64,000 nucleotides of DNA from assembly GCA_016285645.1 (NCBI GenBank), contig JAEERC010000048.1, forward strand, positions 1 through 64,000. Direction: 5' to 3'. Position numbers and translations under genes: made by a program. The stretch is from Clostridiaceae bacterium (GTDB lineage Bacteria > Bacillota > Clostridia > Oscillospirales > Acutalibacteraceae). This document shows, one piece after another, positions 10,897 through 46,434 of this stretch. The notes under the pieces are model-generated. The model had not been told where the DNA came from and did not search any database. It saw only the letters and a program-made list of their open reading frames with translations. Numbering within the stretch: position 1 is the first letter of the stretch; each line of letters starts with the position of its first letter.

Positions 10897-10962
10897 GGGT
10901 GCGGGTCTCCGGTGGAGACCTCTGCCGAAGGCAGAAGCACCGACCGAGCCGGGAGGCGAGAC
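10897..10962 (-). repeat. 66-bp module, copy 1 (reverse), inside a TGTAGGG repeat
   Basis: The reverse complement runs from GTCTCGCC to GCACCC and is exactly 66 bp. It contains the CTGCC-ttc-GGCAG hairpin and the GGTCTCC-acc-GGAGACC hairpin. Its flanks are the two halves of the palindromic GGGCGGGAT/ATCCCGCC repeat. Confidence 0.85.
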
Positions 10963-11116
10963 CATCCCGCCCTACATTTACAAAAAGTTTCCGTCTGTAA
11001 TAGCCCTCTCCAAGAACGGAGAGGGTGTCCCGAAGGGACGGGTGTGGCGATTATTTAATCGGCGCTTTGCGCGGACTCCTTCCGTCACGGTGTTGCGTTG
11101 CAACGCCGTGCCACCT

Positions 11117-11182
11117 GTCTCGCCTGCCGGCTCGGTCGGTGCTTCTGCCTTCGGCAGAGGTTCCCACCGGGAACCCGCACCC
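11117..11182 (+). repeat. 66-bp module, copy 2, interrupting a second repeat type
   Basis: Exactly 66 bp from GTCTCGCC to GCACCC, with hairpins CTGCC-ttc-GGCAG and GGTTCCC-acc-GGGAACC. It separates GTGCCACCT from GGAGGAGGCCAC. These parts are joined by only a few bases at 46355-46390, which therefore looks like the empty site. Confidence 0.85.
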
Positions 11183-11240
11183 CCAATGGAGGAGGCCACG
11201 ACGGACGGATTTTTTGAGGTAAACTTTGGACAGGACTGCT

Positions 11241-11267
11241 TAATATTAATTGTATATATTAATATTA
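11241..11267. repeat. Perfect AT-rich inverted repeat upstream of the larA-like operon
   Basis: TAATATTAAT-tgtatat-ATTAATATTA, 10-bp perfect arms, centred about 36 bp upstream of the candidate -35. It could be an operator; the regulator is unknown. Confidence 0.5.
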
Positions 11268-11289
11268 TGTGAAATAATGATATATTATC

Positions 11290-11318
11290 TTGAATATAAA
11301 ATTTTATTGTGATAAACT
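11290..11318 (+). promoter_or_regulatory. Candidate promoter of the larA-like/gnd/kinase operon
   Basis: TTGAAT (11290-11295), 17-nt spacer, TAAACT (11313-11318). It leaves a leader of about 25 nt before the GGGGAGG Shine-Dalgarno. Confidence 0.55.
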
Positions 11319-11350
11319 TTTAAAAGATACTAAAATGGGGAGGTATGGGG

Positions 11351-12610
11351 ATGATTCTCAACTCTTCGGGCGGGATAAGCGCGGATGAACTGCGCGGCGC
11401 GCTCGGAAAATCGCTTGAGGGCAAGGAACTAAAAAAGGTTCTTATTCTTCCGCCCGACTACACCCGTCTCTATTCAGGCGCGGGCAAAATAACCGCCGCC
11501 TACTATGATATTCTCAAGGACAAATGCGAAATCGACATTATGCCCGCCCTCGGCACTCACGAGCCGATGACGAGGGAGGAATGCCTCGCGTTTTTCGGCG
11601 AGGGCGTTCCCTTTGAGAAAATCATAGTCCACAACTGGCGCACCGATGTTGTAAAACTCGGCGAAGTGCCCGCTCAATTCGTAACCGAGGTTTCCGAAGG
11701 GCTTGTGACCGACAAAATAGATGTTGAGGTAAACCGCAGAATCGTAAACGGCGGCTACGACCTCATAATTTCAATCGGTCAGGTTGTGCCCCACGAGGTT
11801 GTGGGTATGGCGAACTACTCAAAAAACATTTTCGTCGGTTGCGGCGGAAGCAATATGATAAACTCCTCGCACATGCTCGGCGCCTTCTACGGACTTGAGC
11901 GGATTATGGGCAAGGACCACTCCCCCGTGCGCAAGGTTTTCGACTACGCGCAGGAGCATTATTTAAGCGACCTTCCGCTTATGTATGTGCTCACGGTAAC
12001 AACGAACGAGGGCGATGAAACCTTCATTCACGGCTTATATATAGGCGACAAGCTCGGCAACCAGCGCTATCTTTTTGAACAGGCGGTTGAGATGAGTCAG
12101 AAACTGAATCTCATTCACCTCAAAACTCCGATAAAGAAAGCCGTTGTTTACCTTGACCCGCGGGAGTTCAAAAGCACCTGGCTCGGCAACAAGGCGGTCT
12201 ACCGCACGAGAATGGCTATAGCCGACGGCGGCGAGCTTATAATTCTCGCCCCGGGAGTGAAAAAATTCGGCGAGGACGCGGCAAACGACGCGCTCATACG
12301 CAAATACGGCTATGTCGGGCGCGAAAAGGTGCTTGAACTTACAAACGCGAACGAGGATCTGCAGGCGAATCTCTCCGTTGCCGCCCACCTTATTCACGGC
12401 TCGTCGGACGGCAGATTTTCAATCACCTACTGCACCGAGTATTTAAGCGAAGAGGAAGTGCGAAACGCGAACTTCGGCTATATCCCCTATGCTGAAGCGG
12501 TTAAGAAATACAACCCCGAAACGCTTAAAGACGGCTGGTGCACTCTCGAAGACGGCGAGGAAATCTTTTATGTGAGCAACCCCGCTCTGGGTCTCTGGAG
12601 CGTTGACTGA
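11351..12610 (+). CDS. LarA-family nickel-pincer racemase/epimerase (DUF2088 type)
   Basis: 419 residues. The start at 11351 is 7 nt from GGGGAGG, whereas the ATG at 11345 is 1 nt away. The LarA active-site pattern is present: DYTR (R39), GTH (H70), VVPHE (H148), NYSKN (K158) and SSHML (H174). The spacings H148-K158 (10) and K158-H174 (16) equal those of H174, K184 and H200 in Lactobacillus LarA, where the Lys and His hold the nickel-pincer nucleotide and the other His act as bases. The family interconverts configurations of 2-hydroxyacids: lactate in the founder, other acids including sugar acids in relatives. Neighbours are a 6-phosphogluconate dehydrogenase and a sugar-acid-type kinase, so a C2 epimerase of gluconate/mannonate-like acids is more plausible here than lactate racemase. 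No larB, larC or larE cofactor genes are in the window. Confidence 0.82.
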   Translation: MILNSSGGISADELRGALGKSLEGKELKKVLILPPDYTRLYSGAGKITAAYYDILKDKCEIDIMPALGTHEPMTREECLAFFGEGVPFEKIIVHNWRTDVVKLGEVPAQFVTEVSEGLVTDKIDVEVNRRIVNGGYDLIISIGQVVPHEVVGMANYSKNIFVGCGGSNMINSSHMLGAFYGLERIMGKDHSPVRKVFDYAQEHYLSDLPLMYVLTVTTNEGDETFIHGLYIGDKLGNQRYLFEQAVEMSQKLNLIHLKTPIKKAVVYLDPREFKSTWLGNKAVYRTRMAIADGGELIILAPGVKKFGEDAANDALIRKYGYVGREKVLELTNANEDLQANLSVAAHLIHGSSDGRFSITYCTEYLSEEEVRNANFGYIPYAEAVKKYNPETLKDGWCTLEDGEEIFYVSNPALGLWSVD

Positions 12611-12637
12611 CAAATTAACAGAAAGGACTGTTTTTAT

Positions 12638-14089
12638 ATGAAAAAATCTGACATAGGTCTCATAGGTCTTGCGGTTATGGGCGAAAACCTTGTTATGAAT
12701 ATGGAGAGCAAGGGCTTCACCGTATCGGTTTACAACCGCACAACCGAAAAGGTTAAAAAATTCGTTGAAGGCAGAGCAAGCGGCAAAAACATCGTCGGCA
12801 CATATTCGTTGCAGGAGCTTGTTGACTCGCTCGAAAAGCCCCGCAAGGTTATGATGATGATTAAGGCAGGCAAAGCCGTTGACGACACAATCGAGAGTCT
12901 TATCCCTCTGCTCGAGGAGGGCGACATCATCATTGACGGCGGCAACTCCCATTTTCCCGACACAATAAGACGCACCGAATATGTTGAAAGCAAAGGTCTT
13001 CTCTACATCGGCACGGGCGTTTCCGGCGGCGAGGAGGGCGCTCTCAAGGGTCCGAGTCTTATGCCCGGCGGCTCCGTAAAGGCGTGGGAGAGCGTAAAGC
13101 CCATTCTTCAGGCAATCTGCGCCAAGGTTGAGGACGGCTCCCCCTGCTGCGACTGGGTGGGCGAAAACGGCGCCGGTCACTTTGTGAAGATGGTTCACAA
13201 CGGCATTGAATACGGCGATATGCAGCTTATATGCGAGGCGTACCAGTTAATGCGCGACCTGCTCGGTATGGGCGACGACGAAATGCGCGATGTTTTCGCG
13301 AAATGGAACGAGGGCGACCTCGACAGTTACCTTATTGAAATAACACGCGATATTCTCGGCTATAAAGACACCGACGGCGAGCCGATTGTTGAGAAAATTC
13401 TCGACACTGCGGGTCAGAAGGGCACCGGCAAATGGGCAAGCATCGCCGCCCTTGACGAGGGCGTGCCGCTAACGCTCATAGGCGAGGCCGTGTTCTCACG
13501 CTGCCTTTCGGCAATGAAAGAGGAAAGAGTCGGCGCCTCAAAGGTTCTTTCGGGCCCGAAGCCCGCTTTCGAAGGCGACAAAGCGCAGTTCATAAAGGAT
13601 ATAAAAGACGCTCTCTATGCCGCGAAAATCGTTTCATACGCCCAGGGCTATACCCTTATGAGGGCGGCGGCGAAAACATATAACTGGAATCTCAACTACG
13701 GCGGAATCGCGCTTATGTGGCGCGGCGGCTGTATTATCAGAAGCGTGTTCCTCGGCAAAATCAAGGAGGCGTACGACAGCAACCCCAACCTCACCAACCT
13801 TCTGCTCGACCCCTATTTCAAGGATATAATCGAAAAGGCGCAGGCGGGCTGGAGAAGAGTGTGCGCGGCGGCTATAGCCAACGGTATTCCCGTGCCCGCA
13901 ATGACAACGGCTCTCGGCTATTTCGACGGCTACCGCTGTGAGAGACTGCCCGCGAACCTTCTTCAGGCGCAGAGAGACTACTTCGGCGCTCACACCTACG
14001 AACGCCTTGACGCGCCGAGAGGCGAATTCTTCCACACCAACTGGACAGGCGAGGGCGGCGACACCTTTGCCACACAATATAACGCCTGA
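12638..14089 (+). CDS. gndA: 6-phosphogluconate dehydrogenase, decarboxylating
   Basis: 483 residues, close to the roughly 470-480 usual for the long form. The N-terminal Rossmann part has [14 protein letters not shown] and the NRTTEK turn. The central catalytic region shows [19 protein letters not shown] and [10 protein letters not shown], with the conserved Lys in [16 protein letters not shown] and the C-terminal [10 protein letters not shown] tail are intact. The enzyme oxidises 6-phosphogluconate to ribulose 5-phosphate, CO2 and NAD(P)H. It is 27 nt downstream of the LarA-like gene and 18 nt upstream of the kinase, in one operon. That placement suggests growth on a sugar acid rather than a classical oxidative pentose-phosphate branch, since no glucose-6-phosphate dehydrogenase is nearby. 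Confidence 0.95.
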
Positions 14090-14107
14090 TTGAAAAGAGG
14101 TATTGTT

Positions 14108-15184
14108 ATGCTTAACATCAAGAAAGATTACACCTGGGCTCTCGTTGTTCCCACAAGCATGGGCGTGCGCATCTGCCCGCCCGACGGCCAGCCCGTAGCG
14201 TCGAGCAACCTGTTTATGATGCAGGCGACCAGCGCGGAGACGAATGTTGCCAGCATTTCATCCTATCTCGGTCTGCCGGTAAAAGTACTTACCACCTTTG
14301 TTGAGGGCAGCCCGATTGCGGATTTCATAAAGCGCGACCTGCGCTCGAGAGGTATGGTATTTGAGGGCAAGGATGTTCCTCAGGGCGGGCCCTGGGGCTA
14401 CCGCCACCAGTTCAACATAGCCGACAGCGGCTGCGGCTCACGCGGACCGAGAGTGTGCAACGACAGAGCCGGCGAGGTCGGCAGAACGCTCAACATAAAC
14501 GATTTCGATGTTGACCGCATTTTCGGCAAAGAGGGAGTAGCCGTGCTCCACCTTTCGGGGCTTATAGGAGCGCTCTCGCCCGAAACCAGCAGATTCTGCC
14601 TTGAACTTGCGAGAGCGGCGAAAAAATACGGCACGCTCATCTCGTTCGATCTGAACTACCGCGCCACCTTCTGGAAAAACAGGGAGGAGGAGCTTCACGC
14701 AATATTCACCGAAATCGCCTCGCTCGCCGATATACTCGTAGGCAACGAGGAGGATTTCCAGCTCTGCCTCGGCATAAAAGGTCCCGATGCGGGCGGCAAG
14801 GATCTCGCTGCGAAAATCGACGGTTTCAAGGGTATGATTGACTGCGTGCGCGAGAGTTTCCCGAACGCTTCCGTTTACGCCACGACCCTTCGCCAGGTTG
14901 TAAACGCCAACACCCATCTCTGGGGCGCGATTATGTATTGCGACGGCGACTGGCAGGTTGTTGAGCCGCGTGAAATAAGAGTGCTTGACCGCATCGGCGG
15001 CGGCGACGGCTTTGTGGGCGGTATGCTTTACGCCATCCTTAAAGGCTGGGAGAGCGAAAAGTGGATTCAGTTCGGCTGGGCAACCGGCGCGCTCGCGACC
15101 ACTTTCTTAACCGACTACGCGCAGCCCGCGGACGAGGATATGGTATGGAGCGTCTGGAGCGGCAACGCGAGAGTAAAAAGATAA
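14108..15184 (+). CDS. PfkB-family carbohydrate kinase, KDG-kinase-like
   Basis: 358 residues. The ATG at 14108 has GAGG 7 nt upstream and is preferred to the TTG at 14090. The ribokinase fold is clear: FDLNYRATFW (180-189), NEEDF (213-217) and the C-terminal anion-hole motif DRIGGGDGF (294-302), with GGGD in place of the usual GAGD. FDLNYR is typical of 2-keto-3-deoxygluconate kinases, so the substrate is probably a sugar acid. In this operon it could phosphorylate gluconate or a related acid before 6PGDH acts. That is inference from context, and a KDG kinase is the main alternative. It is the last gene of the operon, followed by a strong terminator. Confidence 0.82.
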   Translation: MLNIKKDYTWALVVPTSMGVRICPPDGQPVASSNLFMMQATSAETNVASISSYLGLPVKVLTTFVEGSPIADFIKRDLRSRGMVFEGKDVPQGGPWGYRHQFNIADSGCGSRGPRVCNDRAGEVGRTLNINDFDVDRIFGKEGVAVLHLSGLIGALSPETSRFCLELARAAKKYGTLISFDLNYRATFWKNREEELHAIFTEIASLADILVGNEEDFQLCLGIKGPDAGGKDLAAKIDGFKGMIDCVRESFPNASVYATTLRQVVNANTHLWGAIMYCDGDWQVVEPREIRVLDRIGGGDGFVGGMLYAILKGWESEKWIQFGWATGALATTFLTDYAQPADEDMVWSVWSGNARVKR

Positions 15185-15191
15185 AAATCAA

Positions 15192-15217
15192 GGGAGCGGA
15201 AAACCGCTCCCATTTTT
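15192..15217 (+). terminator. Terminator of the larA-like/gnd/kinase operon
   Basis: GGGAGCGG-aaaa-CCGCTCCC followed by ATTTTT. Confidence 0.88.
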
Positions 15218-15229
15218 CATTTCACGAAA

Positions 15230-15262
15230 AAACGGACCTGCGAATGCAAGTCCGTTGTTTTT
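15230..15262 (-). terminator. Terminator of rplU-prp-rpmA
   Basis: ACGGAC/GTCCGT stem with a 12-nt loop. Leftward reading gives a T6 run. A T-rich tail on the right makes it potentially bidirectional. Confidence 0.75.
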
Positions 15263-15273
15263 GTTTTCAGCGA

Positions 15274-15558
15274 TTACTGTTCAACTTCGTAAACGCTTAC
15301 CTTTTTGCGGTCTCTGCCAAGGCGTTCGAATCTTACAGTGCCGTCAACCTTCGCGTAGAGAGTGTCATCAGAGCCGATGCCGACATTGGTGCCGGGATGG
15401 ATGTGAGTGCCTCTCTGCCTTACAAGGATGTTGCCTGCAAGAACAAACTGACCGTCCGCTCTTTTAACGCCGAGACGCTTGGACTCGGAATCGCGGCCGT
15501 TACGGGTTGAACCCATACCTTTTTTATGAGCAAAAAGCTGAATGTTAACTTTAAGCAT
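15274..15558 (-). CDS. rpmA: Ribosomal protein bL27 with cleavable N-terminus
   Basis: 94 residues. The body has [20 protein letters not shown] and [20 protein letters not shown], typical of bL27 in the large subunit near the peptidyl-transferase centre. It begins [14 protein letters not shown], the Firmicute-type leader in which the sequence up to the FA pair is removed by the Prp protease before the protein can function. The prp gene is directly upstream; its stop codon overlaps this ATG (TAATG). This is the third gene of a rplU-prp-rpmA operon. Confidence 0.97.
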
Positions 15559-15875
15559 TACTGTACACCTCCGTAAATTACTTTGACTTTTCCGGGATAC
15601 TGTTCCGAAATGTTTCTGAGATGGATTTCGAGCCCTCTGAGCACCGCCTGCACCGCTTGTGACGGGCGGGCGAGTTTTAACTCAAGCTTTCCGTCGCTCT
15701 CTTTGACAGACGCTTTTTCTTTGATGACATCGGTCACCGTATTCGCGGCCATATAAGCCGCCGATGAAACCGCGGCGCAGACTATATCTCTGCCCTCTTC
15801 ATCAAAACCGGAATGTCCTTCCAGCGAGAATCCCGAAAGGTTTTCACCATCGATGAAAAATGTTGCGTTGATCAT
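15558..15875 (-). CDS. prp: Ribosomal-processing cysteine protease Prp
   Basis: 105 residues. The motif [20 protein letters not shown] carries the catalytic His (residue 20) and Cys (residue 32) with 11 residues between them, as in characterised Prp. Prp cleaves the N-terminal extension of bL27 in Firmicutes and related phyla. The gene is flanked by rplU and rpmA with overlapping TAATG junctions on both sides, so stoichiometric co-translation is likely. Length and active-site spacing are normal. Confidence 0.95.
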
Positions 15876-16186
15876 TAAGCGTTGATTGAAGAAATTTCAA
15901 CCTTTGTGTAGGGCTGTCTGTGGCCCATCTTGCGTTTTTCGTTCTTCTTGGGTTTGTAAGTGAAAACTGTGATTTTCTTCGCTTTGCCGTTCTTTACGAC
16001 CTTAGCGGTTACTGTTGCACCCTTGAGATAAGGAGTGCCGACGGAGATGCCGTCATCAGAGCCGATAGCAACAACATTGTCAAATGTGTAGTCGCTGTCT
16101 TCTTCAGCGTCAAGCTTCTCGATAAAAACAGTGTCGCCTGCTTCCACCTTGTACTGCTTTCCGCCGGTTTCGATAATTGCGTACAT
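15875..16186 (-). CDS. rplU: Ribosomal protein bL21
   Basis: 103 residues beginning [18 protein letters not shown], the invariant bL21 opening, and ending [18 protein letters not shown] with the 23S-rRNA-binding motif GHRQPYT. The start at 16186 fits family length; an in-frame extension to 16231 would add 15 non-homologous residues. First gene of the rplU-prp-rpmA operon, with a perfect sigma-A promoter and a leader of about 90 nt. Confidence 0.97.
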
Positions 16187-16272
16187 GGTTTTTCCATCCT
16201 TTTTTTTAGACTCGCTATTCAGGGGCAACATAAAGTTTTATGGGGGAGTTACCCCCGCCCGTAATAAGCGGC
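16187..16272 (-). promoter_or_regulatory. 5' leader of the rplU operon with a G/C hairpin
   Basis: The leader contains GGGGGTAACTCCCCC (GGGG/CCCC stem) about 60 nt before the start. Autoregulatory L21 leaders are known in Firmicutes. Whether this is one cannot be settled by eye. Confidence 0.4.
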
Positions 16273-16279
16273 ATGAAGA

Positions 16280-16308
16280 ATTATAGCACAGCAGTCAAGC
16301 CGTGTCAA
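16280..16308 (-). promoter_or_regulatory. Sigma-A promoter of rplU-prp-rpmA
   Basis: Leftward TTGACA (16303-16308), 17-nt spacer, TATAAT (16280-16285). Both hexamers are perfect, as expected for a ribosomal-protein operon. Confidence 0.93.
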
Positions 16309-16325
16309 ATACTTTTTTATTTTTA

Positions 16326-17177
16326 TTATAATAAATTATTCTGTGCCTTCGCGGCGGTCAGCGTGTTTTCCATAAGCATTGTGATTGTCATGGGTCCTAC
16401 GCCGCCGGGCACGGGTGTGATTTTTGAGCAGTGCGGAGCGACCTTTTCAAAATCAACATCGCCGCAGAGTTTGCCCTCGCTGTTTCTGTTCATTCCCACA
16501 TCGATAACTACCGCGCCCTCTTTTACCATATCCTCAGTTACGATATCCGGCTTGCCGACGGCGGAAATGAGGATGTCCGCCTGCCTTGTAACGGACGGCA
16601 GATCAACGGTTTTAGAGTGGCAGACAGTGACTGTGGCGCTGTGATTCAAAAGGAGCATCGCCATCGGCTTGCCGACTATGTCGCTGCGCCCGATTATAAC
16701 CGCGCGGCTGCCTTCGATTTTAACTCCCGAAAACTCGAGCATTCTGATTATTCCCGCGGGCGTGCAGGGAAGAATCTCCGTTCTGCCGAGCGATAACTTG
16801 CCGATATTTACCGGGTGGAAGCAGTCAACATCCTTTTCGGGCAGAATGGCGTCTATTACCGCCTGCTTGTCAATCTGCTTGGGCACGGGCATCTGGCAGA
16901 GAATTCCGTTTACCGATTTGTCCGCGTTGAGTTTATCTATCAGGGCAATAAGTTCCTCTGTTGTGGTTTCCTGAGGCAGGGCGTATTCGAGCGAGGTGAT
17001 TCCTACATTCGCGCACGCCTTTTTCTTGTTATTGACATATACTCTCGACGCGGGGTCGTTGCCCACAATTATAACCGCGAGGCAGATTTCGACTCCCTTT
17101 TCCTTAAGCGACTCCACCTCTTTGCCGATGTGGGTGAGAGTAAACGCCTGTATTTCTTTTCCGTTTATAAGTTCCAC
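16326..17177 (-). CDS. folD: Bifunctional methylenetetrahydrofolate dehydrogenase / cyclohydrolase
   Basis: 283 residues from a GTG start at 17177, placed 9 nt after AGGAGG. Upstream in-frame ATGs would run into lgt. Motifs: YVNNKKKACANVGI with the catalytic Lys, GILCQMPVPKQID, PCTPAGIIRMLEF and GRSDIVGKPMAMLLL for NADP binding, and GGVGPMTITMLMENT at the end. The enzyme oxidises 5,10-methylene-THF and hydrolyses methenyl-THF to 10-formyl-THF for purine and formyl-Met synthesis. The start lies 1 nt after the lgt stop, so it is the last gene of the lon-to-folD leftward run. Confidence 0.96.
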   Translation of the reverse strand: MELINGKEIQAFTLTHIGKEVESLKEKGVEICLAVIIVGNDPASRVYVNNKKKACANVGITSLEYALPQETTTEELIALIDKLNADKSVNGILCQMPVPKQIDKQAVIDAILPEKDVDCFHPVNIGKLSLGRTEILPCTPAGIIRMLEFSGVKIEGSRAVIIGRSDIVGKPMAMLLLNHSATVTVCHSKTVDLPSVTRQADILISAVGKPDIVTEDMVKEGAVVIDVGMNRNSEGKLCGDVDFEKVAPHCSKITPVPGGVGPMTITMLMENTLTAAKAQNNLL

Positions 17178-17178
17178 G

Positions 17179-18234
17179 TCAGATATCCTCCTGAGGGTTT
17201 TCCGCTTCTTCGTCATCGGTTTCTTCGGCGGCTGGTTCTTCCTCAACCGCTTGAGTTATTTCTTCTTTCTCGGGGGTTTCCGCCTGCTCTTTTGCTTCGA
17301 GAGCCTGCTTTTTCAATTCCTCTTCGAGGAAATAATCCACACCGTCAATCGGCTTCGGATTCTTTGTGTATTTAATCCACAGTAATATAAGCGCGACGGC
17401 GCAGACAACGGCGAGAACAGCCGAAAGCAGCTGCGACGAGCGGATATTTGTGCCGGTTATATAGAGACTGTCTGTGCGCAGGCCTTCAACAACGGTTCTC
17501 TCCGCTCCGTACCACACTCCGTAGCACAGCGCCATCTGACCGCTGAATTTGCGGGCTTTTCTGCAGATGATATAGAGAATTACAAAGCCGATGAGGCACC
17601 AGAGCGACTCGTATAAAAATGTGGGGTGAACATAGCCCGTGGGGTTTACCTGTATGCCCCTCTCTGCGAACTCCGCCTGGTTGACAAGCAGGTATTCCTG
17701 CACTTTGGCGCTCCTCATACCCCAGGGCATATTGGTATTTGTGCCGAACGCCTCCTGGTTTGTGAAATTGCCCCATCTGCCGATTCCCTGCGCGAGCAGA
17801 AGACTCATCGCAATCATATCGAGCAGATTGAAGAAATTCATTTTGCGCACGCGGCAGACGATGTAGGCGGCGAGAACTCCGCCGATTACTCCGCCGTATA
17901 TGGCGAGACCGCCCTCCCAGATTTTCGGGATGTCGGCGAGATGCTTGCCGTAATAATCCCACTGGAAAATAACATAGTAGAGACGGGCGCCGATTATTCC
18001 CGCGACAGTGCCGTAAATGAGCACATCAATCATTTTGTCAATGCTTATTTTCCACACCCACGCTCTTCTGCCGCCGAAAAGCACGGCGAGAGCGAAGCCG
18101 AACGCTATTATTACACCGTACCAGTGAATGGTCAGATGTCTGCCGAAAATGTCAAACTCGGCTAAAACCGAGGCGACATTGAAACTTATCTCGTGTGAAA
18201 AGCCCTTGAAAAATACGGTTGTGTAATCAGACAT
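17179..18234 (-). CDS. lgt: Prolipoprotein diacylglyceryl transferase with acidic C-terminal tail
   Basis: 351 residues. The core has several membrane spans, HWYGVIIAFGF, and the Lgt signature GIGRWGNFTNQEAFG (about 150-164). Lgt transfers diacylglycerol from phosphatidylglycerol to the lipobox Cys of prolipoproteins in the cytoplasmic membrane. The last ~60 residues are a charged, Glu-rich extension (EEELKKQALEAKEQAETPEK, then EEEPAAEETDDEEAE) not required in the core family and presumably cytoplasmic. The start overlaps the yfmH stop by 8 bp. The window has one lipoprotein candidate (2153-2638) and possibly others as substrates. Confidence 0.94.
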   Translation of the reverse strand: MSDYTTVFFKGFSHEISFNVASVLAEFDIFGRHLTIHWYGVIIAFGFALAVLFGGRRAWVWKISIDKMIDVLIYGTVAGIIGARLYYVIFQWDYYGKHLADIPKIWEGGLAIYGGVIGGVLAAYIVCRVRKMNFFNLLDMIAMSLLLAQGIGRWGNFTNQEAFGTNTNMPWGMRSAKVQEYLLVNQAEFAERGIQVNPTGYVHPTFLYESLWCLIGFVILYIICRKARKFSGQMALCYGVWYGAERTVVEGLRTDSLYITGTNIRSSQLLSAVLAVVCAVALILLWIKYTKNPKPIDGVDYFLEEELKKQALEAKEQAETPEKEEITQAVEEEPAAEETDDEEAENPQEDI

Positions 18235-20789: not shown

Positions 20790-20821
20790 AATTTCATTCC
20801 CTTCCTGTTTTGATTTAGGGG

Positions 20822-22120: not shown

Positions 22121-22169
22121 TGTTTCTCTCCTCTCCTTTTTATTCCCCTCTTTCATCTATACACACACT

Positions 22170-22751: not shown

Positions 22752-22758
22752 TTTTTCC

Positions 22759-32326: not shown

Positions 32327-32332
32327 AAGCAT

Positions 32333-32362
32333 ACGCTCCGCGCCTTCGGGCACGGAGCGTTT
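32333..32362 (+). terminator. Terminator of pckG
   Basis: ACGCTCCG / CGGAGCGT stem followed by TTTTATTATT. Confidence 0.87.
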
Positions 32363-32381
32363 TATTATTAATAACATTATA

Positions 32382-32417
32382 AAAACGGCTTGCGGAATAT
32401 TCCGCAAGCCGTCTTGT
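32382..32417 (-). terminator. Terminator of ftsZ
   Basis: A near-perfect 28-bp palindrome at 32385-32412 (arms ACGGCTTGCGGAAT / ATTCCGCAAGCCGT). Leftward reading ends in TTTTTAT. It also has T-rich sequence to the right. Confidence 0.88.
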
Positions 32418-32425
32418 TATTCTGT

Positions 32426-33670: not shown

Positions 33671-33707
33671 ACTTTATGACCTCCATAATATTCTCTTGCG
33701 GTATTAC

Positions 33708-33735
33708 ATTATATAACAGGCTAATTTTAACACAA
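33708..33735 (-). promoter_or_regulatory. Candidate ftsZ promoter
   Basis: Leftward TTGTGT (33730-33735), 16-nt spacer, TATAAT (33708-33713), in the ftsQ-ftsZ gap. It would let ftsZ be expressed separately from the dcw operon. Confidence 0.6.
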
Positions 33736-33824
33736 TAAAAGTAAAAAAACAAGAACAAATTGTAAATTATTGCGCCGATACAGCCAGTTTTATGTCTTTT
33801 TAACAAAAAGAGGCCGCTTATCTG

Positions 33825-34847: not shown

Positions 34848-34870
34848 TGGTTTTCCTTTTTCCGATTTGA

Positions 34871-37250: not shown

Positions 37251-37287
37251 CGGAGTTCACCTTCTTTCTTTAAATATTAATCTGTTT

Positions 37288-38328: not shown

Positions 38329-38331
38329 GGT

Positions 38332-39696
38332 TTACTCATCCTTTCCGTCAAGGTATTCATATACCGAATGGATTATTTCCTCAAGTTTCATAGCGCGGCT
38401 TGCCTTGAACAGTACGGCATCGCCTTCGGTGAGCGTTTCCTTGAGATATCCGGCGAGCGCTTCCTTTTCATCGAAGGTGTGCACCTCTTTTATTCCGAGC
38501 GCTCTGCCCTCCTCCGCTATGAAGCGGGACATTTCGCCGTAGCAGAGCAGAACATCCACATTGCTGTTCGCCGCCGCGACGCCTACCTCACGGTGCGCCT
38601 GCTCGCCCATTTCACCGAGTTCCTTCATATCGCCGAGCACGGCTATGCGCCTTTTCGCGTCAAGCCCCCTGAGCACTTCGAGAGCCGCTCTCTGTGAATC
38701 GGGGCTCGCGTTGTAGCAGTCCTCAACAAAGGTGATGCCGCATTTTCTCACAACTCTCTGGCGCATACCCGAGGGCTTGTAATCGACAAGCGCCTTTGCG
38801 GCGTCCGTGGCGTCGATGCCCAGCACTATGCCCGCGCTTACAGCCGCGAGAGCGTCGTAGATGCTGTGCTTGCCCGAAAGGGGCAGAGTCACGCGCTGAA
38901 CGCCGTCGGAAAACCTTGCCGTGAAGCTTGTTTCGTCGCTGCCGAGGTCTATGTCAACCGCCTTGGTGTTGCATTCGCCGTCAATTCCGAAATAGACTAT
39001 CGGATGAGTCATATCGGTATATTTTGAAAGCAGGTCATCGTCGCCGTTTAAAATAAGCGGAGCGCTCGGGCGCATGCTTTCCGTTATTTCGAGCTTCGCC
39101 CTCATTATGTTTTCGCGCGAGCCGAGGTTTTCAATATGCGATACGCCGATATTCGTGATTATGGCAATTGAGGGCTTTACCGCCGCCGTAATACGGGAGA
39201 TTTCGCCGAAATGGCTCATCCCCATTTCAATTACAGCCGCCTCGTAGGTGCTGTCCAGATTGAAGAGCGTGAGCGGCACACCGATTTCGTTGTTGAGATT
39301 GCCCTCGTTCTTGAGTGTTTTGAACCTGCTTGAGAGCACAACATGAGTCATATCCTTTGTTGTGGTTTTACCCACGCTGCCGGTGACGCCCACAACGGGA
39401 ATATGAAACTTTCTTCTGTAATAACCCGCGAGGTCCAGAAGCGCCTGACGGGTGCTTTTAACTATCAGCTGCTGTTTGCCGAGGCCGCAGTTTTTCTCGA
39501 CCACGACCGCCACCGCGCCCTGCTCGAGCGCCTTTGCCGCGAAGTCGTGACCGTCAAAATTCTCGCCTTTTATCGCGATGAAAAGGCAGCCCGGTTTTAT
39601 GCTTCTCGTGTCGGTGCAGACCTCGCTGAACACAGCGTCAATCTGCGGTGCCGAACCGATGGCAACAGCCGCCTCCTTGACTGTCATGGATTCCAT
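38332..39696 (-). CDS. murF: UDP-MurNAc-tripeptide--D-alanyl-D-alanine ligase
   Basis: 454 residues. Mur-ligase ATP loop GVTGSVGKTTTKDM (103-116), central EMGMSHFGEISRITAAVKP, and DCYNASPDS at the substrate site, with GDMKELGE in the C-terminal domain. MurF adds D-Ala-D-Ala to the UDP-MurNAc-tripeptide. The start at 39696 follows AAAGGAAG. It sits between murE (40 nt) and mraY (3 nt) in the cluster. Length is normal. Confidence 0.95.
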   Translation of the reverse strand: MESMTVKEAAVAIGSAPQIDAVFSEVCTDTRSIKPGCLFIAIKGENFDGHDFAAKALEQGAVAVVVEKNCGLGKQQLIVKSTRQALLDLAGYYRRKFHIPVVGVTGSVGKTTTKDMTHVVLSSRFKTLKNEGNLNNEIGVPLTLFNLDSTYEAAVIEMGMSHFGEISRITAAVKPSIAIITNIGVSHIENLGSRENIMRAKLEITESMRPSAPLILNGDDDLLSKYTDMTHPIVYFGIDGECNTKAVDIDLGSDETSFTARFSDGVQRVTLPLSGKHSIYDALAAVSAGIVLGIDATDAAKALVDYKPSGMRQRVVRKCGITFVEDCYNASPDSQRAALEVLRGLDAKRRIAVLGDMKELGEMGEQAHREVGVAAANSNVDVLLCYGEMSRFIAEEGRALGIKEVHTFDEKEALAGYLKETLTEGDAVLFKASRAMKLEEIIHSVYEYLDGKDE

Positions 39697-39736
39697 ACTT
39701 ATTCTTCCTTTATTCTTCCCTTTTTAAATCACACAA

Positions 39737-41164
39737 TCATTTAATATTCAGAATATCCCTTACGATTTCTCTCTCATCATAGTGTATTTTCTCGGTGCCG
39801 AGAATCTGATAATCCTCGTGACCTTTGCCCGCGAGAACCACAACATCGCCCGCCTTTGCCTTTGAAAGAGCGAGGGCGGTCGCCTTTTTTCTGTCCGGCT
39901 CAACATAACGCCTGCCCGAGGTGATGCCCGCGAGAATGTCGTCGATTATGGCGACGGGGTCCTCCGTGCGGGGATTGTCGGATGTTACAACGGTTATATC
40001 CGCGTTTTCGCTTACTATTTTTCCCATAATCGGGCGTTTTGTTCTGTCGCGGTCGCCGCCGCAGCCGAACATGCAGATTATTCTGCCCTCAACTGTTTCG
40101 CGAAGCGAGGTGAGAACATTTAAAAGTCCGTCCGGCGAGTGGGCGTAATCGATAATCACGGTGTAATCCGTGTCTGTTTTCACAACTTCCATTCTGCCCT
40201 TTACTCCGCCGCATTCGGACAGAGAGGAGAGCACGCTGTCGAGGTCAATGCCGAGTTCCACCGCGCATACAGCGGCAGCCATTGAGTTATAAACCGAAAA
40301 TCTGCCGGGCACGCCGAAATGCACCCTGCCTATGAGACTGTCGCTTACAAGCTCATACTCAACGCAGTCGGAGCGCAGGTGGATATTCTTTGCCGAATAA
40401 CTGCTTAAATCGCTCTTTGCGGAGTAGGTGATTCTGCGGCAGTCAAGCCCTTCGAGAATGTATTGGCTCTCGTCGTCGTCATAGTTGACAATGGCGACAT
40501 CCGTCTTTGAGAAAAGCGTCTTTTTCGCCGCTTTGTAATTTTCGAAAGTGCCGTGATAGTCGAGGTGATCCTGCGTGAGATTGGTGAACACCGCCGCGCT
40601 GAAATGAATCGGATCCACCCTTCTCTGGCTGAGCGCCTGGGAGGAGACCTCCATAAAGCAGTAACGGCAACCCGCCTCAACCATTTCCGCGAGCAGCGAG
40701 AAAAGTTCATACGGGTCGGGAGTGGTGAGCGTAGCGGGGTATTCCTTATCGGCTACCATATTCTTGACCGTGCCGAGAAGACCGGTTTTAAAGCCGTTCG
40801 TGTCAAATATTTCCTTTAAGACAAAGCAGGTTGTCGTTTTGCCGTTTGTGCCCGTAACGCCGACCATTTCAAGTCTGTCGGCCGGGTTACCGAAAAACGC
40901 GGAGCACAGAAGCGAGTAGGCGCTTCTTGTGTTTTCGCAGAGAATCTGTTTTTCAATGCCGAGATCGCGTTCGGCAACAACAGCGACCGCGCCCTTTTCG
41001 AGGACTTCCGCGGCTGCCGAATGGCCGTCAAACTTCGCGCCCTTTATGCACACGAAAAGACAGCCCTCCGAAACCTTGCGGGAATCGTCGGTTATGAATT
41101 TTATTTCTTCGTCGCCTGTGTAGCCCGTATAGCCGAGCCCCTCGAGAAGTGTTCTGAGTGTCAT
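39737..41164 (-). CDS. murE: UDP-MurNAc-dipeptide--meso-diaminopimelate ligase
   Basis: 475 residues. ATP loop GVTGTNGKTTT (102-112) and the amino-acid selectivity motif DNPRTEDP (396-403). DNPR indicates meso-diaminopimelate; lysine-adding MurE has a different motif. This agrees with lysA elsewhere in the window. MurE adds the third stem-peptide residue. GGGAGG precedes the ATG. It lies 17 nt downstream of the PBP gene. Confidence 0.96.
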   Translation of the reverse strand: MTLRTLLEGLGYTGYTGDEEIKFITDDSRKVSEGCLFVCIKGAKFDGHSAAAEVLEKGAVAVVAERDLGIEKQILCENTRSAYSLLCSAFFGNPADRLEMVGVTGTNGKTTTCFVLKEIFDTNGFKTGLLGTVKNMVADKEYPATLTTPDPYELFSLLAEMVEAGCRYCFMEVSSQALSQRRVDPIHFSAAVFTNLTQDHLDYHGTFENYKAAKKTLFSKTDVAIVNYDDDESQYILEGLDCRRITYSAKSDLSSYSAKNIHLRSDCVEYELVSDSLIGRVHFGVPGRFSVYNSMAAAVCAVELGIDLDSVLSSLSECGGVKGRMEVVKTDTDYTVIIDYAHSPDGLLNVLTSLRETVEGRIICMFGCGGDRDRTKRPIMGKIVSENADITVVTSDNPRTEDPVAIIDDILAGITSGRRYVEPDRKKATALALSKAKAGDVVVLAGKGHEDYQILGTEKIHYDEREIVRDILNIK

Positions 41165-41181
41165 AGCGTACCTCCCGGAAT

Positions 41182-43476
41182 TTATCCTACATCCGTAACA
41201 CCGGAATTTGATTTGAAATTAAGAACTATGGTTGTGCCCTGCTCAACCTCGGCGCCCGCGGGCAAACTTTGCGAATAGCAGACAAGCTCGCTGTTGCTGA
41301 GCGTTGAGTTCGCGGCAATTGTTACATTGAGCCCCACGCTTTCGGCAACATCGCGCACATCGTAAACCGAGTAGTCCGAAAAATCGGGAACCGTGGTGGT
41401 GAGACGCTCGGCGTCACTCGAAGTGTAAAGCACTATAAGACCGCGCTTCGGAATAATCGTGCCGTAGGCGGGCACCTGCGAGGTGACTATATCGCCGTTG
41501 CCTACAACCTTGACATTGTAGTTTTCGTCAAGCAGCTGGCTGCGCGCGTCGCTGACCCTTGTGCCTACATAGTTGAGGGCGGGGGTGTCGAGTTTGGCTC
41601 TCTCCTCCTCGGTATATTGCGGCTCAATGTTGAGATAAGTCAGTGTCTCCTCAAAAAGTTTTGCCGCAACGGGGGTGCATATCTGACCGCCGTTTATCTG
41701 CCCCTTGGGTTCGTCAACGAGAATAAGCGCGGCTATTTCGGGGTCGTAAGACGGGGCGAAGCAACCGAACGAGGCAACATAGTAGCCCTGACCCTTGCTC
41801 AACTTCTGTGATGTGCCGGTTTTGCCGCACACGTGATAGCCCGCGACATAGGCGTTTTTACCCGTACCGCTTGTTACAACGTCCTCCATCATGCTGGTAA
41901 CCAGAGCCGAGGTTTCGGCTGAAATGACCTGACGCCTGATTGAGGGCTGAGTCTGCATTACGGTATTTCCGTTTTCGTCAATAAGTCTGTCAACAACATA
42001 GGGAGTAACGAGGTTGCCGCCGTTCGCGATTGTTGAAATCGCGGTTATCATCTGCAAAGGCGTGACCTGGAATGTCTGACCGAAGGCGGAACTCGAAAGG
42101 TCGACAAAGCTCATATTCTCGAGCGAGTGATAGGTTTTGTCGGGTGTCGGCATATATTCCGCGGGCAGGTCAACGCCCGTGCGCTCGGTGAAACCGAACG
42201 CCTCGAAATAGCGGAAGAATGTTTCCTTGCCGAGTTTCTGACCTATCGATATAAAGAACGGGTTGCAGGAGTTCATAAGACCCTTGCGCAGCTTCTGATA
42301 GCCGTGACCCGCGTGGTTGTTGCATTTGATGGTCTGATCCGCGACGGTTATGGCGCCCGTGCAGGTGTAGCCGTAATCCTCGTCAATCGTGCCCGATTCA
42401 AGACCCGCCGATGTGGTGACTATCTTGAAAACCGAGCCCGGCTCGTAGGTGTCGCTTACCGTGAAATTACGCCAGTTCTTATAATAGAACGAACTTCTGA
42501 GACTTGCCTTTTCCTCATCATCCTCGGCAAGCTCAACTTCTTTTTTCTGATCCTCGGTAAGTCCGTAGGGGTTGTTTAAGTCGAATGAAGGCACATTCGC
42601 CATTGCGAGAACGGCGCCGGTTTTTACATTCATCACAATTCCGTAAGCCCCTACACCGCCGGAGGTTTCATAAACGCCATTGAGCCCGTCTTCGAGATAG
42701 CGCTGGATTGTGGAGTCAATCGTGAGCACTACGCCCGCGCCGTTTTCGGCTTTATAGACGGTTTCATACTCGTTTGTCATTATGTCGCTTCTCGCGTTTT
42801 TGGCGGTTATGAGTCTGCCCGTGACGCCTGTCAGTTCATCGTTATACTCCGACTCCACGCCGCTTTTGCCGACACCGTCCGCGCCCGCGAAACCGATTAC
42901 GCAGGAGGCGAGAGAACCGTAGGGGTAATATCTTATGACATCGTCGTCAATGCCGACCGCAGTTCTTAACTTGTAGGTTTTGGTGTTTTTTACCGTGCTG
43001 CCGTCATCACGCTCATATTCGGCAACATAATCGAATGTGTTATCAAGAGCGGCAACGACCTTTTCCTTTTCTTCATACTCAACCTGACTTTTGATTACCA
43101 CATAGGGCGATTTGCTGCCGTCGGTCTTTTCGCGGATTGTCTGTTTATCAACATCCTCGAGCACACCCGATAGTTCCTTCGCGACAAATTCCCTTACTTC
43201 CTCGTTGTCGGGAATCGCGCCCGCGTTTATGTAAATTTTCCAGGCGGCCGCGCTCTGGGCGAGAATCACGCCGTTTGAATCGTAGATAATGCCGCGGGTG
43301 GGTTTTATATCGCTGTCTCTGAGCTGGTTCTGTTCCGCTTTTGTTTTATATTCATTGCCGTGAACAAGCATCACTCTCGCGAGGTTTATCGCCACAACAG
43401 CGAACCCAAGAGCCATGATTACGCCTATGAGAATCACGCGCTGCGCAAGTCGTTGTGAAGTTGTTTTTTTAGCCAT
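41182..43476 (-). CDS. Class B penicillin-binding protein with two PASTA domains (FtsI/PBP2B/SpoVD-like)
   Basis: 764 residues from ATG 43476 after AAAGGGTG. One N-terminal membrane span (about 11-33), a dimerisation domain, and a transpeptidase domain with SVFK (348-351), SCN (403-405) and KTG (552-554), the three penicillin-binding motifs. Two C-terminal PASTA repeats follow (about 637-690 and 696-757). It cross-links septal peptidoglycan, working with FtsW. In Firmicutes both the vegetative PBP2B (pbpB) and the sporulation SpoVD occupy this locus and carry PASTA repeats. One copy is present here, so the vegetative role is assumed and no symbol is given. Confidence 0.93.
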   Translation of the reverse strand: MAKKTTSQRLAQRVILIGVIMALGFAVVAINLARVMLVHGNEYKTKAEQNQLRDSDIKPTRGIIYDSNGVILAQSAAAWKIYINAGAIPDNEEVREFVAKELSGVLEDVDKQTIREKTDGSKSPYVVIKSQVEYEEKEKVVAALDNTFDYVAEYERDDGSTVKNTKTYKLRTAVGIDDDVIRYYPYGSLASCVIGFAGADGVGKSGVESEYNDELTGVTGRLITAKNARSDIMTNEYETVYKAENGAGVVLTIDSTIQRYLEDGLNGVYETSGGVGAYGIVMNVKTGAVLAMANVPSFDLNNPYGLTEDQKKEVELAEDDEEKASLRSSFYYKNWRNFTVSDTYEPGSVFKIVTTSAGLESGTIDEDYGYTCTGAITVADQTIKCNNHAGHGYQKLRKGLMNSCNPFFISIGQKLGKETFFRYFEAFGFTERTGVDLPAEYMPTPDKTYHSLENMSFVDLSSSAFGQTFQVTPLQMITAISTIANGGNLVTPYVVDRLIDENGNTVMQTQPSIRRQVISAETSALVTSMMEDVVTSGTGKNAYVAGYHVCGKTGTSQKLSKGQGYYVASFGCFAPSYDPEIAALILVDEPKGQINGGQICTPVAAKLFEETLTYLNIEPQYTEEERAKLDTPALNYVGTRVSDARSQLLDENYNVKVVGNGDIVTSQVPAYGTIIPKRGLIVLYTSSDAERLTTTVPDFSDYSVYDVRDVAESVGLNVTIAANSTLSNSELVCYSQSLPAGAEVEQGTTIVLNFKSNSGVTDVG

Positions 43477-43564
43477 AACTTTCACCCTTTGAGTAAAAAC
43501 AGCCGTCTTGACTGCAAGTGGTTTTCGCCGCAATCAGACAGCTATATTTTAAAATATACGCAGT

Positions 43565-44026
43565 TTATTTGACTTCGCCGAGCACTACCGCGCTGTCGGC
43601 GCTGTTGCTTTCAAAATAATGGATCTGGTATTTTTCAACCTTCCTGAGCCCGAGCACATTCTCGGCGTATTCCTTGACGGTCTCCTCCGAAACCATGGCG
43701 TCAAGCTGCATATTGAGGCGCACATTCTCGCTTTCAACAACCTCGAGCGTTTCAAGATACTCCTGCGTTTTGCTCTCGAGCATTGCAAGTTTGATGCGCG
43801 AGGAGATGATGCCCGCGAACAGTGCCAGAACAATTGTCGCTATTCCTATGATTTTTACCGCGTTGAACAGCGCAAGACGGGATTCGCGCTTCATTGCCGC
43901 CTTTGACTTCGGCGGATTCTTTACAATTTCTGGTCTTCTGACGGGAGCAGCCTCGGGTCTGCGCGCCGGCGACTGATATGTATTTAATAAAGTAAGGTCG
44001 ACCGCAGAACTGCTGTTTCTCGCCAT
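43565..44026 (-). CDS. ftsL: FtsL-like bitopic division protein
   Basis: 153 residues. A Pro/Arg/Lys-rich cytoplasmic segment (about 1-50), one membrane span (about 57-75), and a leucine-rich coiled coil (SKTQEYLETLEVVESENVRL, then LDAMVSEETVKEYAENVLG). FtsL forms a complex with FtsB/DivIC and FtsQ/DivIB to activate the septal synthase. Sequence identity in this family is very low; the call rests on topology, coiled coil and its place between rsmH and the PBP. The 50-residue cytoplasmic part is longer than in many FtsL proteins. Confidence 0.82.
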   Translation of the reverse strand: MARNSSSAVDLTLLNTYQSPARRPEAAPVRRPEIVKNPPKSKAAMKRESRLALFNAVKIIGIATIVLALFAGIISSRIKLAMLESKTQEYLETLEVVESENVRLNMQLDAMVSEETVKEYAENVLGLRKVEKYQIHYFESNSADSAVVLGEVK

Positions 44027-44042
44027 TACCGTTTACCCTCTC

Positions 44043-44963
44043 TCATAATTTTTGCGCTGTTCTGAGTTTCGCGCTTCTGCTGCGCGGATTTTGCGATATT
44101 TCCTCATCGGAGGGATATACCGCCTTGAAGACCTTGGCTTTCGGTTTTTTGCCGCAGACACATACCGGGAAATCCTTCGGGCAGGTGCAACCCTGTGCCA
44201 GAGCCGAAAAGACCTTTTTCACCGTTCTGTCTTCAATTGAGTGGAATGTTATTATACTCAGCCTGCCTTCTGCGCCGAGGCAGGAGAACATGTCTTCGCA
44301 CGCTTTTTCGAGGCCGTCGAGTTCGCCGTTCACATAGATGCGGAGCGCCTGAAATGTGCGCCTTGCGGGATGTGTGTCCCTCGATGCCGCGGCGGGCATT
44401 GCCGAACGGATAATGTCAACAAGCCGCAGCGTGGTCTCAACGGGCTGTGCCTGCCTCTCTCTGACGATTGCCTTCGCGATTGAGGCGGCAAATTTTTCTT
44501 CGCCGTAAACCGAAATGATTCTTCGCAGTTCGTTTTCGGGAAGTGTATTGACAGCGTCAGCCGCCGATAAACCTTCAATGCTCATCCTCATATCGAGCGG
44601 AGCGTCCTTGTGAAAGGAGAATCCGCGGTCGGCGTCTTCAAGCTGATGGGAACTGACGCCTAAATCAGCGAGAATCCCATCAGCTGAAATGACACCGAGT
44701 TTTGAAAGGATAGAGACAATGAAAAAGAAGTTGTCGTGAATAATTGTTACTCTGCCGTCGCCGTCGAAGCGGCTCTTCAGAGTTTCGATTGCCTGCGGGT
44801 CGCGGTCAATACAGATTAACCTGCCGTTTTCGCCTAAGCGTGAGAGGATTTCGCCGCTGTGGCCTCCTCCGCCCGCGGTGCAGTCAACATAAACGCCGTC
44901 CGGCTTTATGTTGAGCGAATCGATTGTCTGTTCAAGTAAAACGGGAATGTGATGAAACTCCAT
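44043..44963 (-). CDS. rsmH: 16S rRNA (cytosine-1402-N4)-methyltransferase
   Basis: 306 residues from ATG 44963 (GGTGGAG upstream). Opening MEFHHIPVLLEQTIDSL, SAM-binding VDCTAGGGGHSGEIL (26-40), LADLGVSSHQLEDADRGFSF, and the C-terminal FHSIEDRTVKK with NPRSRSAKLR. RsmH methylates N4 of C1402 in the decoding centre of 16S rRNA. It is the second gene of the dcw cluster, 14 nt after mraZ, as is nearly universal. Confidence 0.97.
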   Translation of the reverse strand: MEFHHIPVLLEQTIDSLNIKPDGVYVDCTAGGGGHSGEILSRLGENGRLICIDRDPQAIETLKSRFDGDGRVTIIHDNFFFIVSILSKLGVISADGILADLGVSSHQLEDADRGFSFHKDAPLDMRMSIEGLSAADAVNTLPENELRRIISVYGEEKFAASIAKAIVRERQAQPVETTLRLVDIIRSAMPAAASRDTHPARRTFQALRIYVNGELDGLEKACEDMFSCLGAEGRLSIITFHSIEDRTVKKVFSALAQGCTCPKDFPVCVCGKKPKAKVFKAVYPSDEEISQNPRSRSAKLRTAQKL

Positions 44964-44977
44964 CGCTCCACCGCCCG

Positions 44978-45415
44978 TCAATAGTCAATAACCGAAAGAT
45001 CTATGCCTTCAAGGTCTGTGGTATCCGCCTCAACCTTGCTGAAGAATTCGGGCTTCCAGAGTTCTATTCTCTGACCCGCGCCGAACACCACCACTTCCTT
45101 TTCGAACTTCGCGTATTCGCAGAAGTCCGCGCGGATTGTGAACCTGCCCTGCGTGTCGCATTCAACACGCTCGGCGTTGAGAAACAGCTTGCGCTGGATT
45201 TTTGTGCGGTTTTCGCCTGAGAATTTTTCGCTTATGCGTTCTACCAGATCCTGCCAGCCTTCGAGACTGTAGAGGTAGAGACAGGTTATATCTTCAGTGA
45301 GCGGTCTGCAGACAACAAATTCCGTACCGAGATTGCCGCGAAGTTTGGTAGGAACAGCAAGTCTGTTTTTCTGGTCAAGATTGTGCCGGTATTTACCCAT
45401 GAAATCGACAAACAT
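44978..45415 (-). CDS. mraZ: MraZ, transcriptional regulator of the dcw cluster
   Basis: 145 residues. Two tandem AbrB-like repeats, each with a version of the DxKxRxxxP motif: DQKNRLAVPTKLRG near residue 14, then ECDTQGRFTIRADFCEYA near residue 85. MraZ binds direct repeats in its own promoter and controls division and wall genes. The ATG at 45415 follows AGGAGGTAGG and gives MFVDFMGKYRHNLD. Directly upstream is a three-fold, 10-bp-periodic AAGTG-type array at the transcription start, matching the known MraZ operator layout and implying autoregulation of the whole cluster. Confidence 0.95.
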   Translation of the reverse strand: MFVDFMGKYRHNLDQKNRLAVPTKLRGNLGTEFVVCRPLTEDITCLYLYSLEGWQDLVERISEKFSGENRTKIQRKLFLNAERVECDTQGRFTIRADFCEYAKFEKEVVVFGAGQRIELWKPEFFSKVEADTTDLEGIDLSVIDY

Positions 45416-45458
45416 GTTATTCCTACCTCCTTTCGGGCTCCACTCAGCGCAAATTTAT

Positions 45459-45484
45459 CGCCTTTTTTCACTTTTCTTCACTTA
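45459..45484 (-). promoter_or_regulatory. Candidate MraZ operator (10-bp direct repeats)
   Basis: Leftward AAGTGAAGAA, AAGTGAAAAA and a degenerate AAGGCG follow each other in a strict 10-bp register, just downstream of the expected transcription start. MraZ sites are described as short direct repeats with one-helical-turn spacing. Confidence 0.75.
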
Positions 45485-45493
45485 TTTGCCCCA

Positions 45494-45522
45494 ATTATAT
45501 AATATCCTCTGCCCTTTTGCAA
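45494..45522 (-). promoter_or_regulatory. Promoter of the dcw cluster
   Basis: Leftward TTGCAA (45517-45522), 17-nt spacer, perfect TATAAT (45494-45499). No internal terminator was seen before ftsQ, so it probably drives about 10 kb. Confidence 0.8.
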
Positions 45523-45611
45523 TAGTTTTTTTGATTTTTTTTCGATTTTTTTCAAGTTTTTTTCAAAGCAGCCGATTCTCTTGTGGATGGCGTCTGATTT
45601 GCCCACAAAAT

Positions 45612-45663
45612 ATAGATTTTCCACCGCGTTTTCAACATAAACGGTGGAAATCTATGTGGATAA
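45612..45663. promoter_or_regulatory. Inverted repeat and DnaA box upstream of the dcw promoter
   Basis: ATAGATTTTCCACCG and CGGTGGAAATCTAT form an inverted repeat with a 15-nt loop and one bulge. It is directly followed by TGTGGATAA (45655-45663), a perfect DnaA box on the opposite strand. TTTTCCACCG recurs at about 45751-45760, and TTGTGGATG near 45580 is a partial box. Confidence 0.5.
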
Positions 45664-45681
45664 GTTATGACAAAAAGTAAC

Positions 45682-45712
45682 AAAAAAAGAGCGTCCCCGA
45701 GGGAACGCTCCG
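45682..45712 (-). terminator. Leftward terminator with no gene in front of it
   Basis: Leftward GAGCGT-TCCC-tcg-GGGA-CGCTC followed by T7. It would stop transcripts entering the dcw region from the repeat island. Confidence 0.8.
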
Positions 45713-46434
45713 TAAAAATTTATGATTTTTTGAAAAAACGGCGGTTTTCCACCGAAAAAAGAGTCGGAATAGGGGTTTTTCAAAAATTTGATTAAAGAAA
45801 GATTGAATGAAAAATAATTTGTGCTCAGCGGTGATTTTTCGTTTCGTTCAGAATTGCATTTACCGCCACACCCGTCTTGCTCGTTTCACTCGCAATCCAC
45901 CTGCCCCTCCAAGGGGAAGGCTTTGTAGGGAACGCGGTTCCGCGTTCTGGCAAAACGGAGTTTTGCGATGTAGGGCGGGATGGTCTCGCCTGCCGGCTCG
46001 GTCGGTGCTCCTGCCTGCGGCAGAGGTTTCCACCGGAAACCCGCACCCTCATCCCGCCGCCGCAAGGGCTGATATCATCCGCCGACCAGCCACAACACTC
46101 GTGAGGACAAAAACCGTCACCTTGCGCAAACTCCTTCAGTCGCCTTCGGCGCCAGCTTTTTCTCCGAAAACGGGAACCCTTTTGTCGCTTACGCGACATT
46201 TCCCCTGACAGGGGAACAACCCAAAGGAGGAGCTCACGACGGACGGAAAACTTAATGTAAATGTAGGGCGGGATTCCCTAATCCCGCCGCAACAAGGACG
46301 TCCGTGAGGACAAAAACTTGCGCATACTCCTTCCGTCACGGTGTTGCGTTGCAACGCCGTGCCACCTCCCCCATAGGAGGAGGCCACAACGGACGGATAT
46401 TTTGAAATAAACAGTGTTCCGCACAATAAAACAT
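45713..46434. repeat. Repeat island 2: gene-free mosaic related to island 1
   Basis: About 600 bp made of the same modules as 10.6-11.2 kb. TGTAGGG-type hairpins are at about 45925-45950 (AACGCGG/CCGCGTT), 45969-46060 (with a 66-bp insert) and 46262-46290 (GGCGGGAT/ATCCCGCC). The block with TCGCTTACGCGA and CCCCTGACAGGGG lies at 46157-46222. An uninterrupted GTTGCGTTGCAAC repeat is at 46326-46400. The order and orientation differ from island 1. Open frames here are palindrome translations and were not called as genes. Confidence 0.8.
45983..46048 (+). repeat. 66-bp module, copy 3, inside a TGTAGGG repeat
   Basis: Exactly 66 bp from GTCTCGCC to GCACCC. Hairpins are CTGCC-tgc-GGCAG and GGTTTCC-acc-GGAAACC. 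It splits TGTAGGGCGGGAT from ATCCCGCC. Confidence 0.85.

Follow-up and report, generated by a model that had tools for sequence, protein, structure and literature searches.

Rickettsia palindromic elements (RPEs; Ogata et al. 2000, 2002) are short non-autonomous palindromes that occur repeatedly, in intergenic DNA as well as in frame within unrelated protein genes (PMC10969869, PMC3733652). They are included in the CGTC-tagged kind of repeat, for which no dedicated mobilising enzyme is known, and in-frame palindromic elements have been described mainly from Rickettsia and from some REP families (PMC3733652). The REP or GTAG palindromes and their RAYT transposases (PMC3733652) offer a second point of comparison, as hairpins that adjoin a short fixed sequence, target or head, in strand-specific orientation. 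In common with IS200/IS605 they insert cleanly without duplication, some of them nested in palindromes and some in genes.

The element described here was found in a stretch of 64,000 nucleotides from a Clostridiaceae bacterium (the window) and is most aptly classed among selfish, non-autonomous palindromic elements; it acts like RPEs and REPs without carrying CGTC or GTAG tags. Its behaviour is closest to that of the RPEs, as it is short, palindromic and non-autonomous and occurs both intergenically and in frame in unrelated genes. Its end tag, fold, length and host taxon nevertheless set it apart as a separate family: it lacks the CGTC found at one end of the tagged repeats (RPE-4 and RPE-6 included), it folds around a three-way junction, it measures about 63 bp compared to about 150 bp for the first-described RPEs, and its hosts are Clostridia, phages and mobile DNA, with many copies nested in other palindromes. 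In contrast to REP and GTAG palindromes it has no GTAG head, which is present only in its host repeats A and B, and no Y1 (HUH) transposase is encoded in its own genome or associated with it in the genus. Unlike a MITE with terminal inverted repeats and target duplication, it leaves no target-site duplication. Fungal mitochondrial double-hairpin elements and yeast mitochondrial GC clusters are compact multi-hairpin elements that insert into one another; the present element resembles them by description but is bacterial and inserts in frame into coding sequence. A text search of the literature for the peptide and DNA words of the element, incomplete in its coverage, gave no earlier mention. We consider it probable that the element represents a family of ~63-bp non-autonomous, gene-less, hairpin-rich mobile elements of gut and rumen Clostridia, their phages and mobile DNA.

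The initial annotation reported three 66-bp modules, each running from GTCTCGCC to GCACCC, and all three are seen in the sequence at the positions and on the strands it gave:

10897..10962, minus strand: module copy 1, 66 bp as reported from the sequence, with ends from filled/empty pairs; element proper ~10900-10962 (GTCTC..CCGCA on the minus strand), target 10897-10899 (GGG on plus, CCC on minus)
11117..11182, plus strand: module copy 2; element proper ~11117-11179, target CCC 11180-11182 (for an unoccupied class C site see 46367^46368)
45983..46048, plus strand: module copy 3; element proper ~45983-46045, target CCC 46046-46048

Two host repeats are involved, as had been claimed: two copies split a GGGCGGGAT..ATCCCGCC hairpin 3' of TGTAG, and one splits a CCACCT..CCCCCAATGGAGGAGG repeat. 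The arms of the second hairpin read GGTTCCC/GGGAACC, GGTTTCC/GGAAACC and GGTCTCC/GGAGACC, again in agreement with the initial annotation. With 31 BLAST matches and 28 matches to a covariance model built from 15 distinct own-genome copies (about 28 copies), and with a fold that beats shuffled sequence, the module is no product of chance. Its unit has to be redrawn. Because filled and empty sites differ by 63 bp without duplication, the 66-bp module corresponds to an element of about 63 bp plus CCC and, judged from sequence, the terminal CCC is the target. The true unit extends from GTCTC to CCGCA (TGCGGG..GAGAC on the opposite strand), with element ends of the form [G/T]TCTC.. and ..GC[A/G]C. 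The assignment of a single G at the left end and of a single C at the right end is ambiguous, as either may be the element's own.

The element follows GG, nearly always GGG (GGG or GGGG is usual), in a single orientation relative to the target. When 172 distinct copies are aligned on the GGGTGC strand, G is found at -2 in 171, at -3 in 160 and at -4 in 134 of them, while the G directly before TGC, present in 172/172, was required by the search pattern. When the search was repeated with no constraint on the host bases, the position two bases ahead of TGC was G in 194/194. The flanks vary (TAGGGG, AAGGGG, coding GGN), and the base 3' of GAGA is C in 150 of the 172 copies. At exact empty sites we find no target duplication, with a junction slop of 0-2 bases. 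The insertion resembles the IS200/IS605 type because it occurs cleanly 3' of a short fixed dinucleotide, in one orientation and with a structured strand. No replication-strand bias is demonstrable, the GC skew being too weak to use. The outer pair of P1 covaries with the base that precedes TGC: an internal AC occurs with GT at 5/5 loci and CC with GG at 182/184. A pairing between guide and target would depend on this one covarying base, at -1, which could be part of the element itself. In locus L045 (genome G001, ~1501-1780) the T at -1 is not explained by host sequence. Here the element is nested in a copy of the same family and has TTCTC..GCAAC ends with a matching changed internal base.

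The host repeats and the empty sites within the window are the following:

10523..11344, no strand assigned: 0.8-kb repeat island separating a pyruvate:ferredoxin oxidoreductase (PFOR) gene from a Lar_N-domain gene
10887..10977, minus strand: host repeat class A, the GTAG-headed GGGCGGGAT..ATCCCGCC hairpin, split by copy 1
11067..11209, plus strand: class C host repeat, a hairpin followed by CCACCT..CCCCCAATGGAGGAGGCCACGACGGACGG, interrupted by copy 2
45968..46059, plus strand: class A host repeat, TGTAGGGCGGGAT..ATCCCGCCG, interrupted by copy 3
46262..46288, plus strand: class A host hairpin free of the element, TGTAGGGCGGGATTCCCTAATCCCGCC (from inverted repeats I5/I3 and a pattern count)
46318..46396, plus strand: empty class C site CCACCT^CCCCCATAGGAGG, junction 46367^46368 (repeat families D9 and D3)

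In the sister genome G037 the same PFOR-Lar_N gap is short and has no repeat island. The filled class C site at 11117 and the empty one at 46367^46368 form a pair inside the window. Empty class C (CCACCT^CCCCCAAAGGAGG) and class B (CCGTAGGGG^CGGATATC) sites differ from their filled counterparts by 63 bp without duplication. Mobility, which the initial annotation had proposed, is supported by such exact empty sites in several settings that are unrelated to each other: intergenic classes B and C, and four coding sites in mobile DNA. Most of the filled/empty comparisons are between homologues and not between strains of one species. That the element might be programmed finds no support as regards excision. 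No excision product or circular intermediate was seen, which we count against our preferred explanation.

The slot just 5' of CCACCT in class C repeats holds unrelated stems (11067-11116 and 46318-46367 in the window; loci L016, L017, L019 and L022), therefore hairpin swapping extends beyond the module. Beside the third copy, window positions 46478-46938 contain a 141-bp imperfect direct repeat of 77-80% identity, overlapping a 179-aa frame without Pfam match.

The fold consists of a small 5' stem P0 and then a possible three-way junction, in which P1 (GGTGC/GCACC) closes around the swappable hairpin P2 (CTGCC..GGCAG) and the 7-bp hairpin P3 (GGTNNCC/GGNNACC). Copies fold 3.0-3.7 sd better than dinucleotide shuffles. 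Among 15 distinct own-genome variants, 99.3% of cells are paired, and 16 double-change cells are observed vs 2.9 in shuffles. For 83 distinct copies from 26 genomes we observe 146 double-change cells against 36.5 in shuffled and at most 18 in slid controls, so that the structure and covariation proposed initially stand far above both. Covariation is found in all four stems, P0 included, and individual pairs vary among many genomes (P1 pair 24-85 is TA in 16 and CG in 11; P3 pair 61-78 is CG in 18 and GC in 12). The fixed length holds in part. In the own genome 24 full copies are 66 bp long and two are 67 bp, with P2 interrupted by other sequence in a few. Full copies in relatives range from 64 to 74 bp, nearly all of this variation coming from P2, so that a fixed length is not supported for the family as a whole. 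P2 is exchanged blockwise (TCTGCC.., TTCGGC.., TTTGAGC.., TCTGTGGC.., TTTGAATGC..), an exchange that stepwise compensation would hardly yield.

The spread of the element is wide but patchy. Carriers make up 26 of the 99 genomes searched, own genome included. Of 45 genomes of the genus 21 are carriers, and the element turns up again in further families of the order. Among the named isolates and MAGs that carry it are rumen Ruminococcus MAGs, a MAG labelled R. flavefaciens (RUG11186), Eubacterium coprostanoligenes ATCC 51222, Faecalibacterium sp. I4-1-79 (complete genome) and C. aminophilum. Two Ruminococcus phages have one copy each, and IMG/VR contigs carry the element as well, while the plasmid collection searched gave no match. 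A contig binned as Alistipes (L169, CANQGQ010000054.1) also carries it and is possibly a mis-binned clostridial mobile element. In four own-genome loci (L026, L009 at ~2164 on the reverse strand, L029 and L028; contigs C22, C55, C10 and C60) a longer sequence that begins with ATTATCCCCCTCGCAAACGCAGG takes the place of the P2 3' arm and the P3 5' arm, with further hairpin sequence inside it in L029; the ATTATCCCCCTCGCAAACGCAGG junction is identical in two different P2 variants. Genome G075 contains a longer, related-looking repeat GTCTCGCTGCGGCTCGGTCAGGGC..ACCGGCCCC (L086, L087, L091) that shares the 5' part but differs in its hairpins; it may be a sister family.

Every own-genome copy examined is intergenic. 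On IMG/VR contigs, the element is found within protein genes. The C5 DNA methyltransferase (PF00145) of a mobile element contains it at three sites, for which uninterrupted homologues give the empty sites GACCAGGG^CGGAAAC, ATGGGG^CAGAAC and AAAGG(N)^CCGGGTGC. A 314-aa protein (L282/L424) has exactly 21 residues extra after a Gly compared to its relative L425 (71% identical). At these four coding sites in two gene families the net insertion is 63 or 66 bp, a multiple of three that adds 21 or 22 amino acids and keeps the frame. P2 variants that would shift the frame show GAGA or GAGACC at the right junction, not GAGAC. Insertion at the four sites with homologues occurs at a Gly codon GGN, in phase and on the sense strand; the exception is the second-site allele L276, where the codon is TGG. 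The cultured [Clostridium] aminophilum KH1P1 has a copy in a glyoxalase-like reading frame cut short at the 5' end. Similar to the RPEs, a short palindromic element is thus in frame in unrelated protein genes of which uninterrupted homologues are present. Openness in six frames does not indicate coding design, as 13.6% of shuffles are also open, which is not significant. Programmed ribosome bypassing is disfavoured, because bypassed segments need no divisibility by three and the net inserts are 63 or 66 bp. A tblastn search with the peptide, a very short query, gave no match in plasmids and phages.

Could the copies be passengers, amplified within larger host repeats by recombination or gene conversion after very few, ancient insertions? 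In the own genome the P3 variant mostly tracks the host class: GTTCCC is confined to class C and GTGTCC to class B, and class A copies mostly have GTCTCC. Composites therefore seem to have been amplified after few insertions, and many own-genome copies look like amplified host-plus-element composites and not like separate insertions. It follows that covariation need not have arisen independently in each of the three window copies. As an account of the whole family the passenger explanation is improbable, since the same ends recur in many unrelated contexts, including the four coding sites with homologous empty sites, and since the element is present in phages and in several host-repeat types across the order. 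These unrelated contexts and the coding sites require true insertion. The strong covariation and the fold could instead reflect a functional structured RNA, a regulator or terminator-like, conserved as RNA and merely located in repeats. The expectation for RNA selection is that G.U pairs are tolerated as intermediates, more so than mismatches. P1 and P3 contain 959 Watson-Crick cells, 16 mismatches and only 4 G.U, which speaks against the selection as RNA considered initially. Because mismatches outnumber G.U here, the covariation points to palindrome maintenance at the DNA level. Rfam gave no match at gathering thresholds and none of note when relaxed (best 18 bits vs a threshold of 43.2), there is neither a constant neighbouring gene nor an orientation bias relative to genes (15:12), and the insertions in unrelated proteins are in frame. 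We regard conservation as RNA as very unlikely.

Spread through an RNA intermediate, by reverse splicing or reverse transcription of the structured strand, would be in line with the shared sense orientation of all coding insertions and with the single RVT_1 gene in the own genome. The scarcity of G.U and the lack of orientation bias among intergenic copies argue against it, and RVT_1 does not track the element significantly (11/21 carriers vs 8/24 non-carriers, p = 0.24), which also removes reverse transcriptase as a candidate driver; we give this route hardly any credence. The search for an enzyme among the genomes compared found no mobiliser. Y1, absent from the own genome, shows no association in the genus (10/21 carriers vs 16/24 non-carriers, p = 0.24), and neither does TnpB. 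For a serine recombinase (IS607-like) inserting at GG, GG is expected at both junctions; as the right junction is without GG, this candidate was set aside.

We therefore return to a mobile DNA element. By analogy with IS200/IS605 and REP single-strand insertion, a folded single DNA strand may be recognised by machinery in trans, perhaps with one base of the target paired at the foot of P1. The arms would be kept complementary mainly by arm-templated correction and hairpin swapping and not by RNA function. In the own genome, many copies would arise by amplification of host-plus-element composites, and copies in genes would persist because they are in frame and tolerated. A more specific version is tentative and, on balance, doubtful: an undescribed selfish family of ~63 bp, whose folded strand would pick GG by pairing one target base with an internal guide base at the foot of the three-way junction, and which would be moved by some enzyme, be translatable in frame and cross between gut chromosomes, mobile elements and phages.

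These results advise caution, as covariation statistics alone can label DNA hairpins as RNA structures. The element accounts for CGCPVDTSAEGRSTDRAGRRD-like insertions of 21-22 residues in proteins predicted from gut mobile DNA. As its target and fold are defined, and as exact filled/empty pairs and growable isolates are at hand, both movement and protein tolerance become testable.
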